A stretch of 44,577 bases of DNA. It comes from Erythrobacteraceae bacterium (GTDB taxonomy: Bacteria > Pseudomonadota > Alphaproteobacteria > Sphingomonadales > Sphingomonadaceae). The notes beneath the pieces were generated by a model that saw nothing but the letters and a program-made list of their open reading frames with translations, ran no database searches and was not told the origin of the DNA. The position numbers were made by a program, and so were the translations under genes. This document shows positions 5,965-32,038 of the stretch, one piece after another (within the stretch, counting starts at the first letter, position 1; each line of letters starts with the position of its first letter). Location: the NCBI GenBank assembly GCA_027489095.1, contig JAIYAL010000126.1:1-44577 (forward strand), read 5' to 3'.

Positions 5965-5968
5965 TCCT

Positions 5969-10872: not shown

Positions 10873-10878
10873 CGGCTT

Positions 10879-11337
10879 TCAGATCAGATCCGAATCGCCA
10901 GCCATCAGTGCATCGAGGGCTTCAGTCCGTTCGAGGTCACGCTGTGCCTTGTAGTCGAAAACATCCTGCGCCTTGATCCGCCTGTGCCGCCCAACAAACG
11001 AATAGGGCATTGCCCCTTGCTCCAGCAGCTTGATCAGATGCGGACGTGATACATTCAGCAGATCTGCCGCCTGCTGGGTTGTCAGCAATTCCTGAATCGG
11101 CACGAGCGTGACAGCATGGCCGCTACCGACATGACGCAGCAACTCGAGGAACAGATCAGACATTGCCGGCGTCAAGGTCACTTCCACAGGGCTAGGATCG
11201 CCGGGCGCCCTGACGCGCAAGGTTGCTTCACCTGCCTTTTGCGCAGCCAGAATCTGCCGAAGCTGGTTGGCCATGTGACGATCGTCGGCCGAAGGCATAC
11301 GGCCGCCGAAAGGCTCAGCGTGTGCGGGCAATGTCAT
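10879..11337 (-). CDS. Excisionase-type HTH antitoxin
   Basis: 152 aa. The C-terminal half carries a MerR/Xis-like helix-turn-helix (LLTTQQAADLLNVSRPHLIK, then MPYSFVGRHRRIKAQDVFDY), as in the HTH_17 family that pairs with PIN toxins. The N-terminal half is probably dimerising or toxin-binding. An in-frame ATG at 11550 exists, but the start at 11337 is preferred because it has GAGGA just upstream (GAGGATGCC-ATG) and excludes 71 residues of low plausibility. It is expected to repress its own promoter and neutralise the downstream PIN protein. Direct repeats 40-55 bp upstream are a candidate operator. Confidence 0.78.
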   Translation of the reverse strand: MTLPAHAEPFGGRMPSADDRHMANQLRQILAAQKAGEATLRVRAPGDPSPVEVTLTPAMSDLFLELLRHVGSGHAVTLVPIQELLTTQQAADLLNVSRPHLIKLLEQGAMPYSFVGRHRRIKAQDVFDYKAQRDLERTEALDALMAGDSDLI

Positions 11338-11376
11338 GGCATCCTCGGGAAGATTGGCGGCTAAGCCTGATTGCAT

Positions 11377-11392
11377 ATATTCGAAATATTCG
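11377..11392 (-). promoter_or_regulatory. Candidate operator of the toxin-antitoxin operon
   Basis: The 7-bp sequence ATATTCG occurs at 11377-11383 and 11386-11392 (CGAATAT on the gene strand), a period of 9 bp. This AT-rich patch lies 40-55 bp upstream of the antitoxin start, where autoregulation normally occurs. The remaining gap up to 11781 holds no gene or repeat that I recognise. Confidence 0.35.
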
Positions 11393-11781
11393 CAACGAAT
11401 TTTCGGCCCACGTAGGGGTTCTGCTGCGCCGTTCAAGAGGCGGAAGCCGCGTATGTCCATCATGCGTTGGTACTTGGACGCAGGGCAGCGGCCCTCCGTA
11501 TCGCGAACTGAGAACTCTGGCGCCGAGTCGGCTGAAGTGCGAGAGTTCAACGGCTTCGGCGGGGCCCGACCAGAGCCGGCCGTTCAGATCAGCTACCGCG
11601 GGTGTCCGCATCTCGCAGAACCTGCCGCAGTGCTCTTTCAAGTGAATTGTCAGATATGCGCAGCAATCGCGGTCATTGAGGCGCATGCAAAAGTTTCTCG
11701 GAAACACACGTTAATCTGTTGGCGCTTGAGTGGCTGGAATTCTCTGAATGCTGCTACCTGCGGCTGCTACTTCCCGTTGAC

Positions 11782-11820
11782 ATAATCCGCCGTCATCCGC
11801 CGCATAAATGAAAACGATTT
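11782..11820 (+). promoter_or_regulatory. Regulon motif, site 1 (before first SDR)
   Basis: ATAATC at 11782, then 15 nt, CATAAA at 11803, 3 nt, AAAC at 11812, 1 nt, ATTT at 11817. It ends 61 bp before the SDR start at 11882. The same elements at the same spacing occur at 14159 and 26203. It is the most divergent of the three copies (ATAATC in place of ATAACC; CCC after ATTT). Confidence 0.6.
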
Positions 11821-11881
11821 CCCGAGTTTCAGGTGCCTATCTAGAGTCCGGCTCGTCAGAACAGAAACAGGGGAGATAGCC

Positions 11882-12649
11882 ATGAGGCCGGCGCTGGAAG
11901 GAAAGGTCGTCCTAGTAACTGGGGGTGCCGGAGGTATCGGCGCGGCGGCCTGCTCGGTGCTCGCAGAGGCAGGTGCGCGACTGGTCATCAGCGATATCGC
12001 GATCGAGGCTGGTCAGGCCATTGCGGATGGGCTGTGCGCGAAGGGCCACGACGCCATTTTCGCGCCTGCCGACCTGTCGTCGGAAGCGGCAATCGAAGGC
12101 CTGGTTGCGGCGACGGTGGCCCACTATGGCCGCCTCGACGGAGCGTTCAACAACGCCGGAATGGAGCAGCACAACACACCGCTCGACGAACTTACGCTGA
12201 CGCAATGGAACAGCGTCATTCAGATCGATCTGACGGCCGTGTTCCTTTGCATCAAATACCAGGTGCCGGCGATGCTGAAGACCGGCGGCGGCTCGATCGT
12301 CAACACGGCTTCCGGCCTTGGCCAGATCGCCATACCCAATGCGGTGGAATATATCGCGGCCAAGCACGGGGTCATCGGCATAACGCGCGCCGCCGCAGCG
12401 GATTATGGAGCGAAGGGAATCCGGGTAAATGCCATCCTGCCCGGCATTGTCCGTACGCCGATGATCGAACGCTTGAGCAGCGAACCCAGCTTCAGCCAGC
12501 ACGTCGAAAAGCTCAAGATGCGCCATCTGATGCAGCGCTTTGCCGAGCCACATGAGATTGGCGAGGCGGCCAAATGGCTGCTGTCGGAAGGGGCTTCGTT
12601 CGTGAACGGCATTGCCCTGGCCGTCGACGGCGGCGCGCTGGCAAACTGA
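11882..12649 (+). CDS. Short-chain dehydrogenase/reductase (SDR), classical
   Basis: 255 aa. Cofactor motif GGAGGIG near residues 14-20, NNAG in FNNAGMEQ, active-site Ser in NTASG, and canonical YIAAK in NAVEYIAAKHG. Asp in the VISDI segment at the end of the second strand suggests NAD(H) preference. It probably oxidises an alcohol, dihydrodiol or hydroxy intermediate to a ketone. It is the first gene of the catabolic cargo, preceded by regulon motif site 1 and GGGGAGA just upstream of the ATG. The NTF2-like gene follows after 34 bp, so the two likely form an operon. Unlike two other SDRs in the cluster, its catalytic tyrosine is intact. The substrate is unknown. Confidence 0.85.
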   Translation: MRPALEGKVVLVTGGAGGIGAAACSVLAEAGARLVISDIAIEAGQAIADGLCAKGHDAIFAPADLSSEAAIEGLVAATVAHYGRLDGAFNNAGMEQHNTPLDELTLTQWNSVIQIDLTAVFLCIKYQVPAMLKTGGGSIVNTASGLGQIAIPNAVEYIAAKHGVIGITRAAAADYGAKGIRVNAILPGIVRTPMIERLSSEPSFSQHVEKLKMRHLMQRFAEPHEIGEAAKWLLSEGASFVNGIALAVDGGALAN

Positions 12650-12683
12650 CCCCGGCGACGCCATCAAACGCGAGGAAAACCAC

Positions 12684-13049
12684 ATGCAATGGTGGACCGA
12701 CTACTTCAACGACGTGGACACCATGGATACCGAACGCTTCGGGGCATGGTTCGCCGATGACATGGAATTGCAGTTCAACAACGCCCCTCTGATCCAAGGG
12801 AAGGCGGCTGTTCTGGGGTTCCTGCGCGAATTCACCAGAAATTTCAGCTCGCTGAAGCACAGCCACGGCCAACTTGTCGGCGATGAGACCAGCGCAGCGG
12901 GTGAAGCCATGATCGTTTTTGTTCGGCCGGATGATGCCAAGTACACGGTGCGCGGGGTGACCATGGTGACTCGCGACGAAACCGGCTTTCGCCGCATGGC
13001 GATCTACGCCGATTTCTCCGAAATCTATGCAGCGGTGCAAGGAGCTTAG
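12684..13049 (+). CDS. NTF2-like / SnoaL-like small protein
   Basis: 121 aa with an NTF2-fold pattern: helical start QWWTDYFNDVDTMDTERFGAWFADDMELQFN, then NAPLIQGKAAVLGFLREF, typical of SnoaL-like proteins. Members range from isomerases and dehydratases to non-catalytic ring-hydroxylase small subunits. The start at 12684 is chosen because GAGGA lies 7 nt upstream; an upstream in-frame ATG at 12612 falls inside the SDR gene. It is probably cotranscribed with the SDR and could act on the same intermediate. No specific reaction can be assigned. Confidence 0.75.
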   Translation: MQWWTDYFNDVDTMDTERFGAWFADDMELQFNNAPLIQGKAAVLGFLREFTRNFSSLKHSHGQLVGDETSAAGEAMIVFVRPDDAKYTVRGVTMVTRDETGFRRMAIYADFSEIYAAVQGA

Positions 13050-13197
13050 GGTCAGGTCTCGCGCCGGCTGGGCCCGTCGCCTCCCGTCTCGCTTTCAAAT
13101 CCTCACCGGCGTATCGTATTAGAAATGCGCGAGATCACCGCGTACGCGAGGGGGTGGACAGTGTCAGCATACAGGGGCCGAACCGGCGAAGACCGTC

Positions 13198-14139
13198 ATG
13201 CATTTTGACGGGCTTGATCTTAATCTGCTTGTGGCGCTCGATGCGCTGCTCAGCGAACAGAGCGTAACCCGCGCGGCTTCGCGGCTATGTGTGACGCAGC
13301 CCGCAGTCAGCGTCGCGCTGCAGAAGCTGCGCGTGCAGTTTTCCGACCAGTTGCTGGAGCGCGTTGGCCGCCGGATGGAGCTGACACCCTTCGCGCAGGA
13401 TCTGGCGCAGCCGGTGAAGGAACTTCTGCACCAGGTCCGCACGCTCGTGGAGAGCAGGTCGGGCTTCGATCCTGCGGTCGACAGCCGAAGCTTCCGCGTC
13501 CTGATGTCGAGTTCGATCGCGCAGATCTTCGGGGTGCCGGCGCTGCGCGAAATGCGTCGCAAGGCCCCGGGCGTTCATTGCCAAATCGACGTGTTCGTCG
13601 CGCCCGATCTGCTGCGCCGGCTACAGGATGGCGAGATCGACCTGTGCATCCAGCTGTTTCAGCCCGGGGTCTGGGACCCGGGCGGTGACCTGCTGTCGTT
13701 CTCGCACGAAAGCCTGTTTTCCGACCACTATGTGCTGATCGGTGACAAGTCGAACCCCTTGCTTTTTGAAGGCATGAGCTTCGATGATTTCTGCCGGATC
13801 GATCATGTCGAGACTCGGTTCGGGGGCAATCTCGTGAGCATTCCGGAACGCAGCCTCAGCGCCATGTCCAAGCGGCCGAACACGCCCATCGTTGTGCCCA
13901 CCTACAATCTCGCAATCGAGGCCGTGATCGACAGCGCAATGACAGCCATCGTACCGCACAGAGTCGTCAGGAATGCGGGGCTGGACGACCGGCTGACGAT
14001 CCTCGAACCGCCCTTCGCGATCGGCCCGCTCGAACAGAGCATGATCTGGCACAAGCGGTTTGACAACGATCCGGGCCATATCTGGTTTCGCAACCACCTG
14101 GCTGCATATGCCCGCACCCACCTGCTGCATGCTGACTAG
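13198..14139 (+). CDS. LysR-type regulator, NodD/NahR-like
   Basis: 313 aa. The N-terminus FDGLDLNLLVALDALLSEQSVTRAAS..TQPAVSVALQKLR is a LysR winged HTH with the DLNLL signature of the NodD/NahR/LinR branch, whose members bind aromatic or flavonoid-like inducers. A substrate-binding domain follows. It sits between the first SDR unit and the large catabolic operon, in the same orientation. Motif copies lie upstream of the preceding operon, directly downstream of this gene, and before the TonB receptor, so it is the best candidate regulator for all three. The 148-bp gap before it shows no motif copy, so its own control may differ. Confidence 0.88.
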   Translation: MHFDGLDLNLLVALDALLSEQSVTRAASRLCVTQPAVSVALQKLRVQFSDQLLERVGRRMELTPFAQDLAQPVKELLHQVRTLVESRSGFDPAVDSRSFRVLMSSSIAQIFGVPALREMRRKAPGVHCQIDVFVAPDLLRRLQDGEIDLCIQLFQPGVWDPGGDLLSFSHESLFSDHYVLIGDKSNPLLFEGMSFDDFCRIDHVETRFGGNLVSIPERSLSAMSKRPNTPIVVPTYNLAIEAVIDSAMTAIVPHRVVRNAGLDDRLTILEPPFAIGPLEQSMIWHKRFDNDPGHIWFRNHLAAYARTHLLHAD

Positions 14140-14158
14140 AGGTCAGCCCGGCTGACGA

Positions 14159-14197
14159 ATAACCTCCAAAAATATTGGCCATAAAAACAAACCATTT
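14159..14197 (+). promoter_or_regulatory. Regulon motif, site 2 (before the main catabolic operon)
   Basis: ATAACC at 14159, 15 nt, CATAAA at 14180, 3 nt, AAAC at 14189, 1 nt, ATTT at 14194, followed by TTC. It lies 20 bp after the LysR stop and 113 bp before the GlcG-like gene. Spacing is identical to the sites at 11782 and 26203. Confidence 0.65.
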
Positions 14198-14310
14198 TTC
14201 ACCACCATGGGGCGCTCCTAGCATTTCCTCATCAGTGAACCTGCGCCCCCGGGCAGCAGGTCGGACATGCCGACCGGCACAGCCGGATCCGGAAAACAGA
14301 GGATGATGAA

Positions 14311-14745
14311 ATGAGCGCAGATCTCGCGATTGCCGCCCCCTATTCCAGTCTGACGCTCGAGGCGGCAAACGCGGCGCTTGCCGCCGGGGTGAACGCGGCG
14401 CAGGCAATGGGCATTCCCATGTCGCTGATCGCAGTGGACCGCGCTGGGCAGATCGTCGCCACCGCAAGGATGAACGGCGCGAGCGCGATGACGCTCGATA
14501 TCGCGTTCAGGAAAGCCTGGACCTCGGCCATGGCCTCGGCCCCCACCGCCTACATCAAGGACTTCGTGACGAGCGATCAGGGCTCGACCATGTCGATGCC
14601 GCATCTGACCAACTTCTCGGTGATCGCCGGCGGCATCCCGGTCATGGTCGACGGTGCCTGCGTCGGGGGGGTTGGTGTCAGCGGGGCCAGTGCCGATCTC
14701 GATCTCAAGGTTGCAGAAGCCGCGGTTGCCGCGCTGCAGGCCTGA
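14311..14745 (+). CDS. GlcG/HbpS-like protein (DUF336)
   Basis: 144 aa and full length for the family. Typical pattern: LTLEAANAALAAGVNAAQAMGIPMSLIAVDRAGQIVATARMNGAS, then FRKAWTSAMASAPT, and the glycine-rich end GGIPVMVDGACVGGVGVSGASADLDLKVAEAAV. Relatives include HbpS (heme-binding) and GlcG of the glycolate locus; small DUF336 proteins are common in aromatic and oxidative catabolic operons, where their biochemical role is often unclear. It is the first gene after motif site 2 and is followed after 5 bp by the CocE hydrolase, so it likely heads the operon. Whether this copy binds heme cannot be told from sequence. Confidence 0.8.
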   Translation: MSADLAIAAPYSSLTLEAANAALAAGVNAAQAMGIPMSLIAVDRAGQIVATARMNGASAMTLDIAFRKAWTSAMASAPTAYIKDFVTSDQGSTMSMPHLTNFSVIAGGIPVMVDGACVGGVGVSGASADLDLKVAEAAVAALQA

Positions 14746-14750
14746 GTTCG

Positions 14751-16517
14751 ATGTTCTCGACAAGCTGGCAGGTCTCGCCGCGGGTCCACGCGGTTCGGTC
14801 GGACTTCAATGTCATGATCCCGATGTCCGATGGCATCGCGGTGGCTGCGCAGATTTTCCGGCCAGACGCGCCGGGGCGTTTTCCCGCGCTGATCGGCGTG
14901 CATGCCTATGACGCGGCGATGCAGTACAGCCCCTCGCGCCCGCAGGCGGTGCAGGGCCGCAATGCCCAGGCCGAGGCGGGCGACCCGCAGTTCTATGTTC
15001 GGCGCGGCTATGCCCATGTCATCGTCAATGCGCGCGGCACCGGCCAATCCGGCGGCGAATATGGCCACTATAGCCCGCGCGAGGTGCAGGACGTGGTCGA
15101 GGTCATCGCCTGGATCGCGGCGCAGGACTGGTGCGACGGGAATGTCGGCATGTTCGGCGTGTCCTATTTCGCGGTCTGCGCCAAGCAGGTCGCGGCGCAG
15201 AACCCGCCCGCGCTGAAAGCGGTTTTCGCGCCCTATGGGTACACCGATTTCTACCGCGACAAGTTCTATCACGGTGGCATCCTGGCCCACAGCTTCCTGA
15301 CCAACTGGTCGAAGCACCTTGCCGGCGTGCGCGTTCGTGGCTGGTCGCTGGAGGGCCTTGGCGAGGAGGAGTACAATCGGCGCCTTGCCGCGCTGCGCCG
15401 CAATCGCGACATTTTGGCGGTTCCCGAACTCGCGGCGGCGATCGCCGCGCCCGACAAGGGCGCAAATCCGCTGATCCTCGACGTGTTGCTCAATCCCGAG
15501 GACGGGCCCTACTGGCAAGAGCGCAACCCCTGCCTCGAGGATATCCGTGTGCCGATGCTGATCGGCTCATCGTGGGACATGTATTTCCTGCACCTCCCCG
15601 GCGAATTCCGTGCCTGGGAGAAGATCACCGCACCCAAGAAGCTGATCGTCGGCCCGCCGATCTACCTCGACAGGCCGCTCTACCAGTACGCGTTTGAATC
15701 GCTGCGCTGGTTCGATCACTGGCTCAAGGGCATCGATACCGGCTACATGGACGAGCCCGATATCCGTGTGTTCGTCACTGGCGGCGACGGTCGGTGGAAG
15801 ACAAGTACCGCATGGCCGCTGCCCGAGACAGTTTGGCACCCCTTCTATCTCCACGGCGGCGGATTGCTCAGCGAGCATGAGCATTGGCCGCACGAAGGCG
15901 GGACGAGCTACGAAGACAACAATTACAACGCGCGCGGCGGCGCGGCGTTTGCCACCCCGCCGATGGTCGAGCGGACCGAAGTGATCGGCCCGCTCACGGC
16001 GACGGTCTATGTCTCGACCAACCAGCCTGAAGTGCTGGTCTTTGCCTCGCTTTGGGATATCGCGCCGGACGGTTCAAGCCGCCTGCTCACGCGCGGCTGG
16101 CTTAAGGGATCGCTCGCAAGGACCAATCCCGAGACATCGCGGCCCTGGCTCTGGCAGTACGATTTCACCGATCCGCAGCCCGTCGACACCGGCGCGCCGC
16201 AGAGGTTCGACATCAATCTGGTGCCGACTGCGAACGTGTTTCAAAAGGGTCACCGGATCGGTCTGCGGATCAGTTCGTCTGATCAGGATCCGGCAGATAC
16301 GCTGTTCGATATGCTTGGACAGGGACACCTGTTGCAGCAGCAGCCTTCGTGGGTCACTGTCCACCATGATGCAGAGCACCCTTCGGTGCTGCATGTCCCG
16401 ATCACGGATGGAAACCGGATCGGCACCTACATGTCGGGCGGCATCGGCGCGAACCGCAAGCCGGGTGCAGCCACGCCGCAGACAGCCAACAGCACTTCCT
16501 GGGATGAATGGCGATGA
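14751..16517 (+). CDS. CocE/NonD family hydrolase (Xaa-Pro-peptidase/cocaine-esterase type)
   Basis: 588 aa. The N-terminal alpha/beta-hydrolase domain has RPDAPGRFPALIGVHAYD and the nucleophile Ser138 in MFGVSYFA. The C-terminal half is the X-Pro-DPP jelly-roll domain (GPLTATVYVSTNQPEVLVFASLWDI.. to ..RIGLRISSSD). The family hydrolyses esters (cocaine esterase, glutaryl acylases) or X-Pro peptides. No signal peptide is seen, so it should be cytoplasmic. It begins 5 bp after the DUF336 gene and overlaps the next gene by ATGA. A Baeyer-Villiger monooxygenase lies two genes downstream, so an attractive role is cleavage of the ester that enzyme makes. This is inference from context. Confidence 0.85.
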   Translation: MFSTSWQVSPRVHAVRSDFNVMIPMSDGIAVAAQIFRPDAPGRFPALIGVHAYDAAMQYSPSRPQAVQGRNAQAEAGDPQFYVRRGYAHVIVNARGTGQSGGEYGHYSPREVQDVVEVIAWIAAQDWCDGNVGMFGVSYFAVCAKQVAAQNPPALKAVFAPYGYTDFYRDKFYHGGILAHSFLTNWSKHLAGVRVRGWSLEGLGEEEYNRRLAALRRNRDILAVPELAAAIAAPDKGANPLILDVLLNPEDGPYWQERNPCLEDIRVPMLIGSSWDMYFLHLPGEFRAWEKITAPKKLIVGPPIYLDRPLYQYAFESLRWFDHWLKGIDTGYMDEPDIRVFVTGGDGRWKTSTAWPLPETVWHPFYLHGGGLLSEHEHWPHEGGTSYEDNNYNARGGAAFATPPMVERTEVIGPLTATVYVSTNQPEVLVFASLWDIAPDGSSRLLTRGWLKGSLARTNPETSRPWLWQYDFTDPQPVDTGAPQRFDINLVPTANVFQKGHRIGLRISSSDQDPADTLFDMLGQGHLLQQQPSWVTVHHDAEHPSVLHVPITDGNRIGTYMSGGIGANRKPGAATPQTANSTSWDEWR

Positions 16518-17674
16518 GCAATCCATATGCCGAGCGCGCGCGCGAACTGCGCGACCTGATCGAGACCGAGGCGGCCAAGCCAGAGAACGCGAACACGATG
16601 TCGCCAGTGGCGGCAGAAGCGCTGCGCGAGCAAGGGCTGTTCTGGCTGCTCGTGCCCGAAGCGCTGGGCGGCAGCGACGTCTCGGCGGTCACGTTCATCG
16701 AGATGGTCGAGGAACTGGCGGGATCGGACGCGCCCACCGCGTGGTCGCTGATGGCCAATTCGGTAGCGACAATGGTCGCGGCGACCTACAGCTCCGATGC
16801 GCATGTGGCGCGCATGTTCGGCGGTGAACGACTGCCGATCATGTCCTCGACTTATGCGCCAACGGGCAAGGCGACATTCGCGAGCGGCGTCTACCGCGCT
16901 GCGGGCACGCACAATTGGGGCACCGGCATTGGACATGCCGACTGGGTTTCGGGCGCCAATGTCGTATTCGACGATGGCGCACCGGTCATGCAGGCGGACG
17001 GCAAGCCCAAAGTGGTCGGCGCGTTCCTGCGCAAGGATCAGATCCAGTTGGCCGGCAACTGGGATGTTGTGGGGCTTCAGGCCACGGGCAGCGTTGATTA
17101 TGTCGTGCCCGAGCAGGACATTCCCGAGGACTGGACCTTCAACCAGTACTGGACCGAGCCGCAGCGCGCTTCGCGTTCGGCAAACCTCGGCACGCTGGTG
17201 GTGGTCTGCGCGGGGCATACGGCCGTCATGCTCGGCATCGCCCGGCGCGCGCTGCACGAGGCAGCCATGGCGGCTTCGAAGAAGAAGCGGCTCTATTCGG
17301 CGGATTGCATCGCCAACACACCTGTCTTCCAGAATGATTTCCTGAAGCATGAGGCGCTGTTCCAGGCGGCCCGCGCGCGCACCATCGACATCTTTGCCGA
17401 GGCCGACCGACTGGCCGAGGCGGGGCAAGGCCTGTCCGATCTCCAGATCCAGCGGGTACGTCAGGTCACGACCTGGACCCATCAGGTCTGCAAGGACGTG
17501 GTCAATTACGCATTCGGTTCGGTCTCGTCGGCGCTGCGCAATCCCAGCCCGCTGGGCAAGTGCCTGACCGATATCGCGGTGGCCGCGCATCACATCATTG
17601 CCGGGCCGATGTCGCTGATCGACGCTGCCCCGCCGATCATCGCGGGTTGGGCGCAGGACCGCCACCCAAGCTGA
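16514..17674 (+). CDS. Acyl-CoA-dehydrogenase-fold flavin monooxygenase
   Basis: 386 aa. The fold is that of acyl-CoA dehydrogenases: VAAEALREQGLFWLLVPEALGGSDVS, then DAPTAWSLMAN, and a C-terminal helical domain ending in VVNYAFGSVSSALRNPSPLGKCLTDIAVAAHHIIA. The sequence style resembles group D two-component monooxygenases (HsaA, DszC or TdsC type) more than true CoA dehydrogenases, because the usual catalytic Glu region is replaced by the NPSPLGKCLTDIAVAAHH pattern. These enzymes hydroxylate aromatic rings using FMNH2/FADH2 from a separate reductase. No flavin reductase gene is visible in the window. The ATG at 16514 overlaps the upstream TGA; an in-frame ATG at 16508 is also possible. Confidence 0.78.
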   Translation: MSNPYAERARELRDLIETEAAKPENANTMSPVAAEALREQGLFWLLVPEALGGSDVSAVTFIEMVEELAGSDAPTAWSLMANSVATMVAATYSSDAHVARMFGGERLPIMSSTYAPTGKATFASGVYRAAGTHNWGTGIGHADWVSGANVVFDDGAPVMQADGKPKVVGAFLRKDQIQLAGNWDVVGLQATGSVDYVVPEQDIPEDWTFNQYWTEPQRASRSANLGTLVVVCAGHTAVMLGIARRALHEAAMAASKKKRLYSADCIANTPVFQNDFLKHEALFQAARARTIDIFAEADRLAEAGQGLSDLQIQRVRQVTTWTHQVCKDVVNYAFGSVSSALRNPSPLGKCLTDIAVAAHHIIAGPMSLIDAAPPIIAGWAQDRHPS

Positions 17675-17701
17675 ACCAGAGTACCACAAGGAACCAAGTG
17701 C

Positions 17702-19204
17702 ATGACCGGGCCGAACACAGCCGAACCAGCGCGGAAGGGAGTGAGCCTTGCCATCATCGGTGCCGGAATGGGCGGCGTGCTGATGGCGATCAAGCTCAAG
17801 GAAGCGGGCTTCACCGATTTCGTGATTCTCGAAAAAGGCGACCGCGTCGGCGGGACCTGGCGAGAAAACACCTACCCCGGCCTGCACTGCGACTTTCCCT
17901 CGCACTTCTACAGCTACTCGTTCTTCCAGAACCCCAATTGGTCGCGCCGGTTTTCCCCGGGGCCGGAGATCCGGGCCTATCTCGAAAGCGCGGCGCATGT
18001 CTTCGGCGTGCATGATGCCATCCGCTTCAACAGCAAGGTGGTCGACGGGCGGTGGGAGAACGATGCCTGGACGATCACGCTCGAAAGCGGCGAGACCTTG
18101 GTCAGCGATATCCTGATCACCGCCACAGGCTATCTCCACGTTCCCAATTTCCCCGACATTACGGGGCTCGACAGCTTCGCGGGTGCCAAGTTCCACACCG
18201 CGCAATGGGACCATTCGGTCACGCTCGCCGACAAGCGCATCGGGATCATCGGCACGGGCTCGACCTCAACCCAGCTGGTCGCGGAACTGGCTGGCAAGGT
18301 CGCCAAGCTCACCGTGTTTCAGCGCACACCCCAATGGGTCGCGCAGCAGGACAACCCCGCCTACACCGATGCCGAGAAGGCCGCCTTTGCCGCCGATCCC
18401 TCTCTGCTTGCCAAGATGTACGAGGACGAGAAGGCCGAAATGGTCACGCTCGCCGATGGCGCCATTCTCGGCGGCAATCCCGATGCGCGGGCGTTTCTGG
18501 AATCGAACGTGCGCGACAATCTCGCCAGGGTGAAGGATCCTGTGCTGCGCGCCAAGCTGACGCCCGACTACGCGCCGGGCTGCAAGCGCATCGTGATCTC
18601 GCCCCGCTTCTACGAGGCGATCCAGGACCCCGGCTGCGAACTCGTGACCGAGCGCATTGCCTGTGTCGAAGCGGGCGGCGTGCGCACCGACGACAGCGTG
18701 CTGCATGAACTCGATGTCCTCGTCATCGCCACCGGCTATGACACGCAGGCCTATTTCCGGCCGCTGCGACTGACGGGCGCCGATGGCCACAAGATCGAGG
18801 ATATCTGGCGCGAGCGGCCGGTGGCGTTCCGCACCATGACGGTGCCCCACATGCCCAATTTCTTCATGGTCGAAGGCCCGTTCAGCCCGATCGGCAATGT
18901 CTGCGCGTTTCTGACGGCGGAACTGCAGGTCGCGCATATCATCAAGCTGATCAGCATCGCCGCCGATCAGGGCGTGGCGCTGGCCCCGCGTGAGGATGCG
19001 ACCGCGGCATTGCTGGCAACTTACCGGGACGCGGCACGCAAGACGATCTGGGCGACCGGCGGGTGCGTCAGCTGGTATCAGGATTCCGAAGGCGTTCCGA
19101 CGCTGTACCCGTTCCCGAACCAGACCTTCGAGGCGGAAATGACCGCCGATCCGGATCTGGCCGAATATGTCGTCGCGCCGCGCCATGCGCAAGTTTCGGC
19201 ATGA
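17702..19204 (+). CDS. Type I Baeyer-Villiger monooxygenase (BVMO)
   Basis: 500 aa. FAD site GAGMGG at residues 20-25, NADPH site GTGSTS, and between them the Baeyer-Villiger fingerprint FAGAKFHTAQWD (159-170), which fits FxGxxxHxxxW(P/D). KGDRVGGTWRENTYPGLHCD is also typical. The enzyme inserts an oxygen atom next to a ketone to give an ester or lactone, using NADPH and O2. AAGGA lies ~8 nt before the ATG. It sits 27 bp after the flavin monooxygenase gene and overlaps the next SDR by ATGA. With the CocE hydrolase two genes upstream, a ketone-to-ester-to-acid plus alcohol sequence is likely. Substrate is unknown: an aryl ketone, cyclic ketone or side-chain ketone would all fit. Confidence 0.88.
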   Translation: MTGPNTAEPARKGVSLAIIGAGMGGVLMAIKLKEAGFTDFVILEKGDRVGGTWRENTYPGLHCDFPSHFYSYSFFQNPNWSRRFSPGPEIRAYLESAAHVFGVHDAIRFNSKVVDGRWENDAWTITLESGETLVSDILITATGYLHVPNFPDITGLDSFAGAKFHTAQWDHSVTLADKRIGIIGTGSTSTQLVAELAGKVAKLTVFQRTPQWVAQQDNPAYTDAEKAAFAADPSLLAKMYEDEKAEMVTLADGAILGGNPDARAFLESNVRDNLARVKDPVLRAKLTPDYAPGCKRIVISPRFYEAIQDPGCELVTERIACVEAGGVRTDDSVLHELDVLVIATGYDTQAYFRPLRLTGADGHKIEDIWRERPVAFRTMTVPHMPNFFMVEGPFSPIGNVCAFLTAELQVAHIIKLISIAADQGVALAPREDATAALLATYRDAARKTIWATGGCVSWYQDSEGVPTLYPFPNQTFEAEMTADPDLAEYVVAPRHAQVSA

Positions 19205-19962
19205 GCGGGCGTCTTGCCGGCAAGGTCTGCGTGATCACCGGCACCGGTGGCGGCATGGGGGGTGCCGCTGCCGGGATTTTCGCGCGCGAAGGGGCCAAGG
19301 TCGTCGGCTGCGATGTCAATGCGGAGGCCGCGCGCGCCTGTGTCGAGCGGGTTCATGCAGCGGGCGGTGCGATGGTCTCGCTCGAACCCTGCGACTTGCG
19401 CGATGTGGCCGCCTGCGACGCGCTCGTCGCGCTGGCCCTGGAAAGTTATGGCAAGATCGATGTCCTGTTCAACAATGCCGCCGACGCCCATTTCGGCTGG
19501 TTCGAGGACCTGACCCACGCGGACTTCGCCGCAACGCTCGATGCGGAAGTCCAGATCGTCTTCAACCTGACCAAGGCCGCCTGGCCCGCGCTGAAAGAGC
19601 GCGGCGGGTCGATCGTCAACATGGCCTCGGTCTCGGGCTGGATCACCTACAAGGCGCTCCCGGGCCTTGCGCATTCGGCCGGCAAGGGCGCGGTCCTTTC
19701 GATGACCCGTCACCTCGCACTCGAAGGCCGCCATCACGGCATCCGCGTCAATTCGCTGTCCCCGGGTCTGATCGAAACGGGGGCGACCCGCGCGCTGCTG
19801 CAGATGCCCGAGTTTTCCGAAGTGATGCTCGACAAGATCATGCTCGGCCGCGCCGGGCAGCCCGAGGAAGTCGCCGCTGCCGCGCTGTTTCTCGCCTCCG
19901 ACGAGAGCAGCTTCATGACCGCGGCGGACATCCGCATCGATGGCGGCACGACGGCGTGGTGA
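19201..19962 (+). CDS. SDR with catalytic Tyr replaced by His
   Basis: 253 aa. Cofactor motif GTGGGMG (14-20), FNNAAD at 90-95 in place of NNAG, Ser in NMASVSG, and C-terminal IDGGTTAW, so a classical SDR fold. The usual YxxxK reads H158-SAG-K162 (LAHSAGKGAV), and the Ser-to-His segment is about two residues longer than normal. The codon is CAT, one base from TAT. Activity may be altered, or the protein may be a non-classical or structural member. Start at 19201 by ATGA overlap with the BVMO stop. The extradiol dioxygenase gene follows after 21 bp. It could handle the alcohol or ketone on either side of the BVMO step. Confidence 0.82.
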   Translation: MSGRLAGKVCVITGTGGGMGGAAAGIFAREGAKVVGCDVNAEAARACVERVHAAGGAMVSLEPCDLRDVAACDALVALALESYGKIDVLFNNAADAHFGWFEDLTHADFAATLDAEVQIVFNLTKAAWPALKERGGSIVNMASVSGWITYKALPGLAHSAGKGAVLSMTRHLALEGRHHGIRVNSLSPGLIETGATRALLQMPEFSEVMLDKIMLGRAGQPEEVAAAALFLASDESSFMTAADIRIDGGTTAW

Positions 19963-19983
19963 ACCTTAGGCGGGAGAGCTGAC

Positions 19984-20913
19984 ATGGCGGTTTTGGGTGT
20001 TGCCGGATTTACGCTCGAAGTCCCGGACATGGACGCCGGGCTCGCGTTCTACCGCGCCGCAGGGCTGGTCGCCGATGTTTCGGAGGACAGGGCGACACTT
20101 GTCTGCCCCGGTGGCGAGACGCCCTGCGTCACGCTGATCCGCTCGTCCTCACGGATGCGTCTGCACCATGTGACACTGCGCGCCGACGCGCTCGACGAGA
20201 TGGCCGTGCGCGTCCCCGCGCATGGCGGCAAGGTGGTAGAAGCCCCCGCCGGGTTCGGCGCGGACGGCCTTTGGGTCAGCGATCCGCATGGAGTTCTGTT
20301 CCATCTGGTCGAGCTCGCCCCCGAGCCGGCACCGCCTGCCGGTCCATCCTTTGCGATCAATGCGCCCGGGGCAATCGTCCGGGTGCGGCAATCGGCCATG
20401 GCGCCTTCGGGCAACTACCCTCCGGCACGGCCGCGCAAACTGGGCCATGTCGCTCTGTTCACGCCTGACGTGCTCGCCAGCGTGGACTTCGTGACCGATG
20501 CCTTCGGCATGGCCCTCGCCGACCGGGCGCAGGATGTGGTCGCGTTCTGCTGCGCGCGGCGCAGCAGCGACCATCACGTGCTTGCGTTTGCCAAGTCTCC
20601 GGGCACCGGGCTCCACCACGCCAGCTTCCAGGTTGCCGATCCCGACGAGGTCGGCCGCGCGGGGCAAGCGCTGGCGAACGCGGCTGGCCGGGGACACTGG
20701 GGCTTCGGCCGTCACACCATCGGATCGAACTTCTTCCACTATATCCAGGATCCGTGGGGCTCGTGGTTCGAATACTATTCCGACATGGATTACATCGACG
20801 ACCACGCGCTGTGGCAGCCGACGGTCTACGGGATGGAAGACGCCATGGCCAACTGGGGCCCGCCCGTCCCTGCCGATTTCGTGCACAACTATCAGGTTGA
20901 GGCCGCGCAATGA
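19984..20913 (+). CDS. Two-domain VOC protein, extradiol dioxygenase type
   Basis: 309 aa with two vicinal-oxygen-chelate modules. The C-terminal one carries the usual 2-His-1-Glu metal set: His in LGHVALFTPDV (about 155), His in TGLHHASFQVAD (about 211), Glu in WGSWFEYYSDMDYI (about 261). This is the type I extradiol dioxygenase layout (BphC/catechol 2,3-dioxygenase), which opens a catechol ring next to its hydroxyls using Fe(II) and O2. The N-terminal domain is shorter and likely structural. It lies in a block with ring hydroxylases and an FAH-type hydrolase, so it is the likely ring-opening step. GGGAGAG lies just upstream of the ATG, and the stop overlaps the next gene by ATGA. Confidence 0.85.
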   Translation: MAVLGVAGFTLEVPDMDAGLAFYRAAGLVADVSEDRATLVCPGGETPCVTLIRSSSRMRLHHVTLRADALDEMAVRVPAHGGKVVEAPAGFGADGLWVSDPHGVLFHLVELAPEPAPPAGPSFAINAPGAIVRVRQSAMAPSGNYPPARPRKLGHVALFTPDVLASVDFVTDAFGMALADRAQDVVAFCCARRSSDHHVLAFAKSPGTGLHHASFQVADPDEVGRAGQALANAAGRGHWGFGRHTIGSNFFHYIQDPWGSWFEYYSDMDYIDDHALWQPTVYGMEDAMANWGPPVPADFVHNYQVEAAQ

Positions 20914-21626
20914 GCGACCCGGCAGGGAGCAGGCCCGTATGCGCCGTTGTCGGCGTGGGTCCCGGCAATGGTGCGGCGCTGGCCAGAACCTTTGCCAAGG
21001 CGGGCTATGCGCTCGCCTTGATTGCGCGCAGCGCCGAGTTTGCGACCGAGCTTGCTGCCACGTTTGCAGAGGCCCGCGCCTATGTCTGCGACATCGCCGA
21101 GGAAGCCGGGGTTGCCGAAACCTTTGGCCGCATCCGCGCTGAGCTGGGTGACGTGGACGTCCTCATCATGAACGCGGGCACCGGGGCGTGGGGCTCGATC
21201 GAGACGATCAGTCCCGGGCAGTTCGAAGCGGCATGGCGCACCAGCGCGCTCGGAACCCTTCTGGCCAGCCAGCAAGTCATCCCGGCAATGAAGCGCTGCG
21301 GCCAAGGCACGATCCTTGTCATCGGGGCCACCGCTTCGCTGCGGGGTGTGCCCAGTACCGCCGCGGTTGCTCCGGCCAAGGCGGCCCAGCGCATTCTGGC
21401 CGAATCCATGGCGCGTACCCTTGGACCGGCCGGGATTCACGTCTCGGTCCTGATCCTCGACGGCGTGGTCGATATGCCCGCCGCCCGAACGCATTTCGCT
21501 GACAAGCCCGAGGCCTTCTTCATCAAGCCTGACGCGGTGGCCGAGACCGCCCTCGCCCTCGTTCGGCAGGATCGCTCGGCATGGTCTTTCCTGACCGATG
21601 TGCGACCTTTCGGTGAAACGTGGTGA
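20910..21626 (+). CDS. SDR-like protein lacking the YxxxK tyrosine
   Basis: 238 aa. Nucleotide motif GVGPGNG (15-21), NAG in LIMNAGTGAWGS, and GATASLRG where the active-site Ser block lies. The expected YxxxK reads V153-APA-K157. A related SDR subfamily with GATASLRGG has Phe in this position, so loss of Tyr may be a family trait and not a recent mutation. Its catalytic mechanism and substrate are unclear. It overlaps the dioxygenase gene by ATGA and is followed by an 82-bp gap before the FAH gene. Confidence 0.78.
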   Translation: MSDPAGSRPVCAVVGVGPGNGAALARTFAKAGYALALIARSAEFATELAATFAEARAYVCDIAEEAGVAETFGRIRAELGDVDVLIMNAGTGAWGSIETISPGQFEAAWRTSALGTLLASQQVIPAMKRCGQGTILVIGATASLRGVPSTAAVAPAKAAQRILAESMARTLGPAGIHVSVLILDGVVDMPAARTHFADKPEAFFIKPDAVAETALALVRQDRSAWSFLTDVRPFGETW

Positions 21627-21708
21627 TCGCCGTGCTGCCGCTCCGCCTTCCGCATCCCCTCTCCCGGCCTCAGGGCCGCACAGGTTTCAGCGTTTTGGGA
21701 GTTCTGCC

Positions 21709-22554
21709 ATGAAAATTGCCTCGTTCGATGCGGGTGACGGCCCTGAAACGGGCGTTGTGATCGGCAACCGCATCCATTCGACCGGGATTGCCGGCTCCAT
21801 GATCGATCTCATCACCCAATGGGACAAGGTCAAGGATGCCGTTGCCGCCAATGCGGAGCGCGATCCCGGTCTGGCGCTGGATGATATCCGCCTGCTTGCG
21901 CCGGTGGCGCGGCCCGGCAAGATTTTCGCGATCGGCCTCAACTACGCCGACCACATTGCCGAAAGCGCAATGGGAACGCCCGAGAAACAGGTGTGGTTCA
22001 CCAAATCCGTCACGGCGATCAACGCGCCCGCCGATCCGGTATTGATCGCGGCGGGCACCTCTGCGGTCGATTACGAAGTCGAACTCGTCGCGGTTATCGG
22101 CAAGCGCGGCAAGCACATCGCCCGGGAAGACGCCGCGGCCCACGTGTTCGGCTACTGCGTGGGGAACGACGTCACCGAACGCGCCTGGCAGCATGCCACG
22201 GGGCAGTGGTCGCTGGGCAAGTCGTTCGATACCCATGCGCCGATCGGGCCGTGGATCACAACGACGGACGAAGTCGGCGATCCCCACGGCCTCGACCTCA
22301 GCTGCACCGTCAATGGCGAGCTTCGCCAGTCGTCGAACACGCGGCACCTCGTGTTCGATCTATGGGACCAGATCGCGCACCTGTCGCAGGCGATGACGCT
22401 CGAAGTGGGCGATCTGATCTTCACCGGCACGCCCGGCGGCGTGGGCGCGGCGATGAAACCGCCGCGCTTCCTCAAGGCCGGCGACGTGGTGCGCTGCGAA
22501 ATCGAGCATCTCGGCGCGATCGAGGCCGTCTTGCAGGATGAGGAGCCGGCCTGA
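21709..22554 (+). CDS. Fumarylacetoacetate hydrolase (FAH) family protein
   Basis: 281 aa. Metal-binding signature SAVDYEVELVAVIGKRGKHI, GYCVGNDVTERAWQ, and the end region VGDLIFTGTPGGVGAAMKPP, all hallmark FAH segments. These enzymes hydrolyse, hydrate or decarboxylate ring-opened acids (fumarylpyruvate, 2-hydroxypentadienoate, oxaloacetate) with Mg or Mn. Next to an extradiol dioxygenase it most likely acts on the ring-cleavage product. The start at 21709 is preferred over 21598 because the family begins MKIASF-like and GGGAG lies upstream. The stop overlaps the next ATG (TGATG). Confidence 0.87.
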   Translation: MKIASFDAGDGPETGVVIGNRIHSTGIAGSMIDLITQWDKVKDAVAANAERDPGLALDDIRLLAPVARPGKIFAIGLNYADHIAESAMGTPEKQVWFTKSVTAINAPADPVLIAAGTSAVDYEVELVAVIGKRGKHIAREDAAAHVFGYCVGNDVTERAWQHATGQWSLGKSFDTHAPIGPWITTTDEVGDPHGLDLSCTVNGELRQSSNTRHLVFDLWDQIAHLSQAMTLEVGDLIFTGTPGGVGAAMKPPRFLKAGDVVRCEIEHLGAIEAVLQDEEPA

Positions 22555-24026
22555 TGGCGGTCCGTGAATGCGATGTCCTGATCGTTGGTGGCGGTCCGTC
22601 CGGGGTTACCCTCGGCCTGTTCCTCGCCGCTGCCGGCGTGTCGACGATCATAGCCGAGAAGGAGCAAGCCATCTATCCGCTGCCGCGCGGCGCGCATATC
22701 GATCACGAGATAGTACGCATCCTCCAGAATGTCGGGGTCGCCGAAGACGTCATGGCGACCAGCCGGACAGGCGGGCGCTATGAATTCCTGACGGCCGACC
22801 GCCAGATCCTGCTCAGCTTTGACTGGACCGCGCCGGGGGCCTCGGGCTGGCCTTATTCGAACATGATACATCAGCCCTCGCTCGAGGCGGCGCTGCGGAG
22901 CAGGCTGGCGGGCTGCCCCGATGCCGTCTTGCAGGCAGAGTGGACCTTCGTCTCGATGGAGACTGCCTCACAGGGCGTGAGCGCGCATTTTGCAACGCCT
23001 GCCGGTCCGGAAACCGTGCGAGCGCGCTTTATCGTCGGGGCCGACGGCGCGCGTAGTCCGGTGCGCGAGGCGGCGGGGATCGCGATCGACGATCTCGGCT
23101 TCGACGAACCCTGGCTGGTGGTCGACACGATCGTCCACGATCCCGCCCGGCTGCCCGACCGCAACCTGCAGGTCTGCGATCCCGCCCGTCCGACAACCTG
23201 CGTGATGATGGGCAATGGCCGCCATCGCTGGGAATTCATGATCAGGCCGGGCGAGCGGAGCGAGGATGTGCTCGATGATGCGTTCATCGCCGATTTGCTC
23301 AGGCCCTGGGATGTCGAGGGCGCCGTCACGCTGGAGCGCAAGGCGGTCTACCGTTTCCACGCTCGGCTCGCCAAGCAGTGGCGCTTGGGTCCGGTCCTGC
23401 TCGCTGGCGATGCCGCGCACCAGATGCCGCCGTTCGCGGGGCAAGGCATGTGTTCGGGCATGCGCGATGCGGCCAACCTCTGGTGGAAGCTCGTTGAAGT
23501 GATCCAAAGCGGCGCGGACGACCGCCTGCTTGACGCCTATCAGGCCGAGCGCGAGCCCAATGTGCGCGGCATTGTCGACATGGCGATCCTGATGGGGCGC
23601 ACCGTCTGCGTCACAGACCCTGAAGCCGCTGCTGCGCGCGATTCCGCGATGCTCGCCGATCGCGCAGCCGGGCGCAGCCCCGATGCCCAGGCTGGTTATC
23701 CCCCGATCAGCGCAGGCCGGATTCTTGGCGGAAGCGCTGGGGCGGGAGGTTACTTTCCGCAGCCGTGGTCGAACGATCAGCCCGCCCTCCGGCTGGACGA
23801 CGTGACCGGCCCTGGCCCGATGCTGTTCAGCCGCAGCGGCACCGTGCCCGCAGGCAACAGCGGCTTGCGGGTCATGGAACTCGCCGATCCGTCCATCACC
23901 TTTGCGAAGTCAGCCCTCGAAGACTGGCTCGTCCGCCATGATGCCGATGCCGTGCTGGTCCGGCCCGATCACTACGTCTTCGGCAGTGGCGATCCGGCCC
24001 GGCTGATCGCGGCATGGCAACCCTGA
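22554..24026 (+). CDS. FAD-dependent aromatic hydroxylase (MhpA/PheA-like)
   Basis: 490 aa. Rossmann motif GGGPSG (11-16), the GADGARSPVRE segment (DG motif), and GDAAHQMPPFAGQGMCSGMRDAANLWWKL near 285 (GD motif). A C-terminal thioredoxin-like domain follows, as in 3-(3-hydroxyphenyl)propionate hydroxylase and phenol hydroxylase. These enzymes add an ortho hydroxyl to a phenolic ring with NAD(P)H and O2, producing a catechol-type substrate for an extradiol dioxygenase, which is present three genes upstream. Start coupled to the FAH stop. The 46-bp gap after it leads into the NmrA-like gene. Confidence 0.87.
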   Translation: MAVRECDVLIVGGGPSGVTLGLFLAAAGVSTIIAEKEQAIYPLPRGAHIDHEIVRILQNVGVAEDVMATSRTGGRYEFLTADRQILLSFDWTAPGASGWPYSNMIHQPSLEAALRSRLAGCPDAVLQAEWTFVSMETASQGVSAHFATPAGPETVRARFIVGADGARSPVREAAGIAIDDLGFDEPWLVVDTIVHDPARLPDRNLQVCDPARPTTCVMMGNGRHRWEFMIRPGERSEDVLDDAFIADLLRPWDVEGAVTLERKAVYRFHARLAKQWRLGPVLLAGDAAHQMPPFAGQGMCSGMRDAANLWWKLVEVIQSGADDRLLDAYQAEREPNVRGIVDMAILMGRTVCVTDPEAAAARDSAMLADRAAGRSPDAQAGYPPISAGRILGGSAGAGGYFPQPWSNDQPALRLDDVTGPGPMLFSRSGTVPAGNSGLRVMELADPSITFAKSALEDWLVRHDADAVLVRPDHYVFGSGDPARLIAAWQP

Positions 24027-24072
24027 GCGGCGTTCCGCCGCCACCCCAAGAACACCCCTGAGAGGAACACCC

Positions 24073-24993
24073 ATGGAAAATTCACCGTCCGGCCAGACCG
24101 TACCTCCAAGGCGGGTGCTGATCGTGGGGGCTACCGGGTTCCTCGGCGCCAAGATCGTCGCAAACCTGCTGCGCGATCCAACGGTCACAGTCCGCGCGAT
24201 GTCACGCAAGGGCGCGCCTGCGGATGCGGCACCCGGCGCCGAATGGGTTCAAGGCGACATGATGGACCCCGCCTCGCTCGACCGCGCACTCGAAGGGGTG
24301 GACGTGGTTGTCAGTTCGGCCAACGGCTACATGAAGGAAAGCATCGAAATCGACTTTGCCGGCAACCGCAACCTCGTCGAGGCGGCGGCACGGGCCAAGG
24401 TGCGGCGCTTCGTGTTCCTCAGCATCGTCGCCTGCGAGCATGCGGCGGATGTCCCGCATTTCCATGCCAAGAAGGTGGCCGAGGACCTGATCAGGGCAGC
24501 CAATGTGCCCTTTGTCTTCGTGCGCGCCCCTGCCTTCCTCGACCAGAGCGCGGACTACATCGCGAATGCCGTGAAGGGGGGCAAGTTTTATGCGGTCGGG
24601 GACAAGAGCACGCGCTGGTCCTATGTCCTGACCGACGACCTTGCCGCCAATCTGGCAGCCGCAGCGGCCTGGCCCGGCGATGAGATCACCGGCCAGACGA
24701 TCGATATCGGGTGGCGCGACGGCCCGAAAAGCCAGCAGGAAATCGCCGACACCATCGGGAAGCTAGTCGGCAAGCGACTCAAGATCTGGACCGTGCCATG
24801 GGCTGTGTTCAGCGTCCTGGTGCGGCCGATCAGGCTGATCTCGGAACTGGGCTTTGATCTCATGCGCATGTTCCTGTTCTTCCGGCGCGGCGTCTTCGTG
24901 TCCGACATCGCACTGCAGGAACGCTTCTTCGGCCCTGCCCCCACCTCCCGCGATGCCCTGTCGCGCTGGGCGAAGGCCAATGGCCTCGTTTGA
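24073..24993 (+). CDS. NmrA-like NAD(P)-binding protein (atypical SDR)
   Basis: 306 aa. N-terminal GATGFLG (19-25) and a Rossmann fold with DVVVSSANGYMKESIEID, then RFVFLSIVA and the substrate-side FVFVRAPAFLDQSADYI. The C-terminus holds hydrophobic and basic stretches (IWTVPWAVFSVLVRP, FLFFRRGVF) that might associate with a membrane. The family includes redox sensors and NAD(P)-dependent reductases; no YxxxK motif is evident, so the reaction is unknown. AGAGGAAC lies before the ATG. It is followed by the Rieske gene after 56 bp. Confidence 0.75.
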   Translation: MENSPSGQTVPPRRVLIVGATGFLGAKIVANLLRDPTVTVRAMSRKGAPADAAPGAEWVQGDMMDPASLDRALEGVDVVVSSANGYMKESIEIDFAGNRNLVEAAARAKVRRFVFLSIVACEHAADVPHFHAKKVAEDLIRAANVPFVFVRAPAFLDQSADYIANAVKGGKFYAVGDKSTRWSYVLTDDLAANLAAAAAWPGDEITGQTIDIGWRDGPKSQQEIADTIGKLVGKRLKIWTVPWAVFSVLVRPIRLISELGFDLMRMFLFFRRGVFVSDIALQERFFGPAPTSRDALSRWAKANGLV

Positions 24994-25049
24994 CCCGCAT
25001 TTCTGGCCAGACGGCGGCACCGATCTGCCAATTGCAAGGAGAGCTGTCG

Positions 25050-26114
25050 ATGTATCCGCTTGAAGACGGCAGTTTTGCCCCGCGCAATCAATGGTATGTT
25101 GCCGCATGGTCGCAGGAGATAACCCGCGCGCCGCTCGAGCGGGTCATTCTGGACAATCCGGTCGTGTTCTATCGCACGACGGACGGCAATGTCGCCGCGC
25201 TCGCCGCATTGTGCCCGCATCGCGGCTTTCCGCTCGCCAAGGGCGACGTGATCGCTGACGACATCGAATGCCCCTATCACGGACTGCGCTTCGGTCCTGA
25301 CGGCGCCTGCACGCTCATTCCTTCGCAGGATATCGTACCCGCCGTGTGCCGCCTCAGGGCCTACCCTGTCGCCGAACGCTGGCAATGGGTCTGGATCTGG
25401 GTGGGTGATCCTGAGCTTGCCGACGAAGCGCTGATCCCCGATCATCTCGCGGCGAGGCTGACCGATCCCGCCTACCGCAATGCCGGGGGCAACTACTTTG
25501 CGGTGCCGGGCCGCTATGTCCTGCTGCACGACAACCTGCTCGATCTCAACCATGTGCCCTATCTCCACAAGGCGACTTTCGGCGGCGACGGCGGCGGGGC
25601 GGTCCAGGTCCCGGAAGTGATCGCGGCCGAGACCACCATTTCCTGCGTCTTCACGCAGCCGGAGATCGATTGCCCGCCCTTCCTTGCCGCGTTGTTCGGC
25701 TATTCCGGGCCGGTCTCGCGCAAGTATGTCAGCTATTTCTACGCGCCTTGCCTGCACGTGATCGTCGATTCCATCAGCCGGCTCGATCCGGCGACGGGGG
25801 CGACCGAGCCGCTTGGCGATCTGCTCCACATTCATGCCGTCACCCCGGCAACCGCAACCACCGCGCACTACTTCCAGGGTGAGGGGCAGAATTTCTCGCA
25901 TACCGAACCTTGCCTCTCGGAAGCGTTCCGTTCGAGCGAGATGGTGCGGGCAGCGCTTGAGGAGGATGTCTCTGCAACGCGTCTGATCGAGCGGAGCATC
26001 GCCATGAACCGCGGTCAGCTGTCCGAGATTCTGCTCAAGGCCGACAAGGCCGCAGTGTTGGGGCGCCGCCTGCTTCAGGCGATGATCGATGCCGAGGCGC
26101 CGGCTGTGATCTGA
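25050..26114 (+). CDS. Rieske non-heme iron oxygenase (O-demethylase/hydroxylase type)
   Basis: 354 aa. Rieske cluster ligands C55-P-H57 and C74-P-Y-H77 (ALCPHRG..ECPYHGLRF), and mononuclear iron ligands in the HDNLLDLNHVPYLH segment (about 158-171). The single-component alpha subunit, its length and the PRNQWYVAAWSQEI start resemble vanillate O-demethylase/dicamba demethylase and phthalate-oxygenase groups. It would need an external reductase (ferredoxin reductase type), and none is seen nearby. Start 25050 is chosen for AAGGAGA ~8 nt upstream; an upstream TTG at 24990 overlapping the NmrA-like stop is less likely. Likely role: demethylation or hydroxylation of a methoxy-aromatic or similar ring. 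Confidence 0.85.
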   Translation: MYPLEDGSFAPRNQWYVAAWSQEITRAPLERVILDNPVVFYRTTDGNVAALAALCPHRGFPLAKGDVIADDIECPYHGLRFGPDGACTLIPSQDIVPAVCRLRAYPVAERWQWVWIWVGDPELADEALIPDHLAARLTDPAYRNAGGNYFAVPGRYVLLHDNLLDLNHVPYLHKATFGGDGGGAVQVPEVIAAETTISCVFTQPEIDCPPFLAALFGYSGPVSRKYVSYFYAPCLHVIVDSISRLDPATGATEPLGDLLHIHAVTPATATTAHYFQGEGQNFSHTEPCLSEAFRSSEMVRAALEEDVSATRLIERSIAMNRGQLSEILLKADKAAVLGRRLLQAMIDAEAPAVI

Positions 26115-26202
26115 CGGAGGCGTCTCGCGGGCCGCACAAACCCGGGGGCACTTCCGGGCGAAGCCGCGCGCCGCAATGGTTCAGACCACAATGGCTCTAA
26201 CG

Positions 26203-26241
26203 ATAACCGAGCAGCATTATCGGCATAAATATAAACAATTT
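26203..26241 (+). promoter_or_regulatory. Regulon motif, site 3 (before TonB receptor)
   Basis: ATAACC at 26203, 15 nt, CATAAA at 26224, 3 nt, AAAC at 26233, 1 nt, ATTT at 26238, then TTG. It lies in the 206-bp gap after the Rieske gene, 79 bp before the TonB receptor ATG. Elements and spacing match the copies at 11782 and 14159, so the receptor likely shares their regulator. Confidence 0.65.
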
Positions 26242-26320
26242 TTGCAACGCCAAGCCACTGCCTAAGCCGGTTCCATCAAGGAAGCCAAAGCTTCCGGACA
26301 CGGTCGGTGGAGGGCCTGAA

Positions 26321-28498: not shown

Positions 28499-28529
28499 TC
28501 GGCACAAATGCGCTGCTGAGAGGCACTCG

Positions 28530-29908: not shown

Positions 29909-30159
29909 GGCGCTTCACCTGAGCCTGATAGTGCGGGCGCATCCCCTGAAGCTATGCCTACGCAGCGTGCGGGTTAAATCTGCCAGCCTTTTGGCGACAG
30001 ATCTGCCATCCGGCGTATTATTCCGGCGCGGCAACTTTGTCCCAATGGCCGAGACTGGTCCCGACCAATGTCGGTCAGTCACAACTGCCCCAATGACCGA
30101 CTGATTCTCCTGTTAGCCGCCATTCCACTTAGAGATATTGCATCGATCGAGCACATAGC

Positions 30160-31944: not shown

Positions 31945-32038
31945 ACGGTTTGCCTTGACGGTGGGTGGCTGGTATCCCTCCGCTGGCTGGATCGAACCAG
32001 CTCGAAGCCCGCAATGGGCACGGGGAACGGGGGGAATT

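Follow-up and report, generated by a model that had tools for sequence, protein, structure and literature searches.

Three copies of a 39-base element with fixed internal spacing lie in a 44,577-nucleotide contig of an Erythrobacteraceae bacterium (JAIYAL010000126.1 of assembly GCA_027489095.1; this whole stretch is hereafter called the window). These copies are very probably the operators of a single catabolic regulon and are predicted to be bound by the adjacent LysR-type transcriptional regulator (LTTR), the LysR encoded at 13198-14139 on the + strand. The regulon would thus comprise one regulator, three operators of fixed geometry and a gene set for the uptake and breakdown of an aromatic compound. 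Systems of this kind are well known; the regulon itself, with its nod-box-like operators, is new, and a search of largely open-access literature found no publication on it. The more surprising point of the analysis is that the shared geometry connects rhizobial nod boxes with sphingomonad regulators.

The pattern ATAAYC-N15-CATAAA-N3-AAAC-N-ATTT has exactly three matches in the window, all on the + strand: operator P1 at 11782-11820, upstream of genes for a short-chain dehydrogenase (SDR) and a SnoaL-like protein; operator P2 at 14159-14197, upstream of an operon running from an HbpS-like gene to a Rieske oxygenase gene; and operator P3 at 26203-26241, upstream of the genes for a TonB-dependent receptor and a CoA-transferase. 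An earlier sequence-only reading of this DNA had reported three copies with identical spacing, each 61-113 base pairs (bp) before the start codon of a separate transcription unit. The pattern search reproduces the copies exactly, the start codons lie 61, 113 and 79 bp beyond the motif end at P1, P2 and P3, and the assignment of the three downstream units holds on Pfam domains and homology of the encoded proteins. That reading had also proposed a scan of the genome, which comprises 3,317,900 bases in 223 contigs and is 91.45% complete. With as many as 3 mismatches allowed, only the three window sites match and the pattern read backwards matches nowhere, so that there is no genome-wide scatter of copies; a relaxed consensus at up to 3 mismatches likewise returns only these three. 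The pattern has no match in 100 dinucleotide shuffles of the window, a count that taken alone is post hoc because the pattern was derived from these very sites. Independent support comes from the footprint in other genomes and from a separately trained matrix. Built on nine sites from other genomes, with those of the window and of the L013 locus left out, the matrix ranks the three window sites first at 49.0, 45.4 and 40.9 bits, with the next best place in the window at 8.2.

The sites are conserved together with the regulator. Seven loci carry an orthologue of this LysR: the window itself, L013 (96% identity), G311, which is the same as L014 (83%), L015 (84%), L016 (72%), G342 (76%) and G179 (60%); as the probable source genomes of L013 and L016, G544 (96%) and G549 (73%) were left out of the count. 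P2 precedes the DUF336/HbpS operon in all seven, P1 precedes the SDR gene in six (the window, L013, G311, L015, L016 and G342), and P3 is present in each of the three loci where the TonB gene was found (the window, G311 and G342). Even in L016, where a 452-codon frame (2781-4139) resembling by its translation a pyridoxal phosphate (PLP)-dependent enzyme of Cys/Met metabolism lies between lysR and P2, the site still stands with HbpS. A degenerate operator-like stretch (matrix score 1.4) is seen at L016 2746, just before that PLP-enzyme-like frame. Across 396 genomes of the order, scanned at up to 2 mismatches, nine genomes match, three of which (G000, G311 and G342) carry the catabolic island. 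The other six (G095, G041, G021, G066, G038 and G071) have one 2-mismatch match each and were set aside as chance, since the matches listed for them include no island gene of at least 35% identity and the pattern read backwards gives 5 hits in the same 396 genomes. The CocE-like hydrolase of the P2 operon (14751-16517), sought at E 1e-150 or better among 397 family genomes, occurs in two, that of the window and G179, each of which has the LysR and the site.

Alignment of 16 sites from the seven loci reveals the anatomy of an LTTR operator. Invariant in all 16 are ATA at positions 1-3, AT at 14-15, ATAA at 23-26, AA at 32-33 and ATTT at 36-39. Each site consists of two AT-N11-AT dyads (T-N11-A boxes) centred at positions 8 and 30, that is 22 bp apart; all 16 sites have both dyads, which would lie upstream of and next to the -35. 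In the window the dyads lie at 11782-11796 and 11804-11818 (P1), 14159-14173 and 14181-14195 (P2), and 26203-26217 and 26225-26239 (P3), with TT following the second dyad each time. A TA at positions 61-62 recurs in 15 of the 16 sites, G179 having it one base earlier, and may open the -10 hexamer; the corresponding window coordinates are 11842-11843, 14219-14220 and 26263-26264. If so, transcription would start near position 73 and the dyad centres would fall near -65 and -43, which fits the usual LTTR places, the place of the -35 being inferred from the conserved TA. The term promoter motif used by the sequence-only reading needs correction: the element, shared by three units, is best read as an operator made of two tandem dyads that lie ahead of a putative -10, and by itself it is no promoter motif.

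We propose that the LysR binds each operator as a tetramer, with one dimer on the upstream dyad as the recognition site, centred near -65, and the other on the downstream dyad as the activation site, centred near -43 beside the -35 region. The inducer is probably an aromatic substrate or a pathway intermediate, and inducer-bound LysR would activate RNA polymerase at all three promoters. P1 would then drive the SDR and SnoaL genes and perhaps lysR itself, P2 the HbpS-to-Rieske operon with its ester hydrolase, monooxygenases, extradiol-like dioxygenase and fumarylacetoacetate hydrolase (FAH), and P3 the TonB receptor and CoA-transferase, so that uptake, ring breakdown and CoA activation would be switched on together. 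The lysR gene lies downstream of the SDR and SnoaL genes on the same strand, and no site of operator geometry was found directly upstream of it, so it is perhaps read through from P1; P2 begins 20 bases beyond its last base (14139 to 14159).

The encoded protein is an LTTR by its domains, an N-terminal HTH_1 and a C-terminal LysR_substrate, both above Pfam cut-offs. It is 33% identical to NodD and 30% to NahR. In a tree of 53 rows, NahR not being among them, it groups with its orthologues, while NodD falls in another supported group (100/100) with four LysRs of this bacterial family, including L074 of the same genome; several LysRs of this genome sit on very long branches and their placement is unsure. 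At 33% identity and outside that group, the regulator is not NodD.

Reduced to its bare geometry, AT-N11-AT-N7-AT-N11-ATTT with all other letters open, the operator still matches exactly the three sites in the window. Around all 20 non-orthologous LysR rows (32-46% identical; 21 stretches, 143,616 bases) it occurs at 11 places near 9 of these 20 sphingomonad regulators. Changing the middle spacer to any of 13 other lengths (2-6 and 8-15) gives no place at all, and changing the inner length to 6-10 or 12-15 gives one place at 8, one at 9 and otherwise none. Without the final TT, spacer 7 gives 28 places against 0-6 for the other spacers. Mapped on the tree, the presence of the box requires 5 changes against a shuffled mean of 10.3, and none of 500 shuffles is as low, a result favoured by near-copies among the rows. 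The trait is thus clustered, but either it arose or disappeared repeatedly or some sites escaped the search. Two places in L035, at 16161 (-) and 16180 (+), stand back to back in opposite directions about 5 kb from a LysR 36% identical to that of the window, and perhaps form a divergent promoter pair. In the nod region of Rhizobium leguminosarum WSM1325 (L060, 8,876 bases) the geometry occurs at three places, before genes for a NodA-family protein, an acyl carrier protein and glmS. We take these places as nod boxes; the second and third genes are presumably nodF and nodM, which would make them the boxes of nodA, nodF and nodM.

The sequence-only reading had pointed to the neighbouring LysR, and a three-promoter regulon under that protein is the best-supported interpretation, given a site with the orthologue in every one of the seven loci and the LTTR-operator anatomy. 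It is improbable that another regulator binds the sites, such as the double TetR-like protein encoded on the same contig (30513-32021) or a second LysR of the genome. A 38% TetR match does lie near the G311 island, and the genome holds 14 HTH_1 matches, among them L074 in the wider group that includes NodD. However, G342 keeps all three sites with no TetR of at least 33% identity among the matches listed in its 40 kb stretch, the geometry is that of an LTTR operator, and the site goes with the LysR orthologue throughout. The geometry has no place near the 13 other HTH_1 matches of the genome (39,833 bases; one match is below cut-off and two share a reading frame). Without the final TT these loci yield one place, a palindrome that two overlapping loci share and that was counted on both strands. 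Less probable still is the view that the motif serves a special sigma factor as its core promoter. The fixed distance to a conserved TA and the position before three units would suit one, but a pair of dyads with a 22 bp spacing, both ahead of the -10, does not resemble -35/-10 elements, the genome has only three copies, and the geometry follows a group of LysRs. That the copies are functionless leftovers of a dispersed repeat or a duplication is barely credible: all three do share a contig that looks mobile, with its relaxase, integrase and ParB genes, but P1, P2 and P3 resemble one another no further than the motif and the TA, their spacers and flanks being different, and other genomes retain each copy at the corresponding promoter where the surrounding DNA no longer aligns. 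Blastn alignments of the window with G342, L014 or L016 stop before each site and resume beyond it, none covering a site; L013 aligns with the window across P1 and P2 at 89%. A repeat search of 11500-30400 returned at least 60 direct families (20 listed) and 172 inverted pairs (25 listed); those listed resemble chance matches in coding DNA.

Several observations weigh against a LysR regulon with this operator layout. G179 keeps the LysR and the SDR gene, yet the matrix gives no P1 site there. The 16 aligned sites are not independent, the G311 and L015 loci being near copies. The -10 amounts to a conserved TA only, and a sigma-70 consensus scan of 11600-14400, which covers P1 and P2 and has P3 outside its range, found no promoter-like site on the + strand. 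L074, in the wider NodD group, is a possible second binder. As to the geometry, 11 of the 20 related LysRs have no exact match in the DNA searched, certain matches nearly duplicate each other (L046/L047, L048/L035), and four places stand apart from the LysR gene, those of L046 and L047 by about 900 bp and two of L035 by about 5 kb. The single places at inner lengths 8 and 9 show that altered spacings also match. Background matches occur too: two elsewhere in 40 kb of G179 (L031), three in a Vibrio locus (L017) and two overlapping ones near 6.6 kb of pDTG1, far from nah. Finally, two further plasmid stretches (L061 and L062) with three NodD-like LysRs contain no match to the geometry.

All genes of the three units lie on the + strand. 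Behind P1 are the SDR (11882-12649, by Pfam) and the SnoaL/NTF2-like protein (12684-13049; Pfam on the open reading frame 12612-13049, the start read from the sequence). The P2 operon, assigned by homology, opens with the HbpS-like (DUF336) gene (14311-14745). This gene at the head of a predicted aromatic pathway is found behind the site in all seven loci. There follow the CocE/NonD-family hydrolase (S15; 14751-16517), an HsaA-like monooxygenase of acyl-CoA-dehydrogenase fold (16508-17674), a flavin monooxygenase like Baeyer-Villiger enzymes (17702-19204), an SDR (19063-19962, whose domain begins at about residue 54 of the frame, so that the real start is later), an extradiol-dioxygenase-like protein of glyoxalase fold (19984-20913), another SDR (20910-21626), an FAH-family protein (21598-22554), an MhpA-like aromatic hydroxylase of the FAD_binding_3 family (22554-24026), an NmrA-like NAD(P)-binding protein (24073-24993) and the Rieske oxygenase (24990-26114), whose best solved match is the dicamba O-demethylase DdmC. 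The 17702-19204 product carries FAGAKFHTAQWD, which we take to be a Baeyer-Villiger-type fingerprint. Neither this product nor that of 22554-24026 has a G311 match at 33% identity or more. P3 is followed by the TonB-dependent outer-membrane receptor (26321-28498) and CoA-transferase subunits A (28530-29237) and B (29234-29908), also assigned by homology. As far as homology can tell, the gene set fits the breakdown of an aryl ketone or a methoxylated aromatic.

Around these units, the TetR-like frame at 30513-32021 (-) is a single one of 502 codons with two TetR-type DNA-binding domains, hence a fused or double TetR, and it adjoins a TonB receptor gene and a GPH-type transporter gene. In L013, positions 6042-9032 are 89% identical to window positions 11781-14771, an alignment that starts one base before P1; upstream, L013 has an FAH/FAD-hydroxylase pair 57% identical to that of the window. 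The regions 81-11550 and 41984-44029 hold genes for a TraI-like relaxase/helicase, an integrase-like protein, a DUF7146/Toprim protein, a strawberry-notch-type helicase, and PIN and ParB proteins. With these neighbours, the catabolic island seems to be part of a plasmid-like or integrative element. At E 1e-50 or better, the LysR has a match in one of 114 genomes of the window's own genus, namely its own, against 8 of 195 in the genus of G311 and G342, so the island looks horizontally acquired, unless the contig is mis-binned.

Among known systems, NahR resembles this regulator as a related protein (30%) serving aromatic catabolism; it differs in that neither the nah nor the sal promoter of pDTG1 shows a match to the geometry. 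The best solved matches of the window LysR are 1uth, 5ae4 and 2uye, which we take to be DntR. The operators have the layout of classical LTTR sites. OxyR repeats are reported to be centred at -66 and -44 (PMC5002191), and GalR recognition and activation sites have been deduced from an alignment (PMC9942251); here, two T-N11-A dyads 22 bp apart would lie near -65 and -43. Letters and targets differ, and here one regulator would serve three separate promoters, all in one direction. LigR of Novosphingobium aromaticivorans is a sphingomonad LTTR that acts as an activator in aromatic catabolism, with a protected region from -51 to -85 and a conserved TT-N-GC-N6-TTAT (PMC12710314), a motif that differs from the window sites. 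FdeR of Herbaspirillum seropedicae is also an LTTR activator with T-N11-A boxes, which overlie the -35 of the fde naringenin operon (PMC10799723), a flavonoid-degradation operon in its case.

A further known system is the NodD regulon, which shares a related LTTR, several units per regulator and, in the three WSM1325 boxes, the same spacing. The likeness of the AAAC-N-ATTT half to the nod box, suggested by the sequence-only reading, did not survive alignment: the window sites have AAAC at positions 31-34 and the nodA box has it at 27-30, a shift of four bases that puts the two out of register, and the other two WSM1325 boxes lack it. The link to the nod box accordingly rests on the spacing AT-N11-AT-N7-AT-N11-ATTT, which is our own reading of the L060 boxes and which the window sites share. 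The nod box is described by ATC-N9-GAT palindromes (PMC5596368), whereas the window dyads read ATA-N9-(C/A)AT and ATA-N9-(G/C/A)AT. Nod boxes precede nodulation genes and answer to NodD; here the annotated genes that follow are catabolic, none being a nodulation gene, and the tree puts the 33% identical regulator outside the NodD group. We tentatively suggest, as a possibility we hold somewhat short of even, that the layout of the nod box (a pair of AT-N11-AT dyads with 7 bp between them and an ATTT end) is older than nodulation and was the ancestral operator of an LTTR branch that holds NodD and several sphingomonad regulators, the window LysR included. If this is true, NodD would have retained its operator layout from such ancestors. 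The geometry also provides a search pattern for the operators of uncharacterised LysR relatives.

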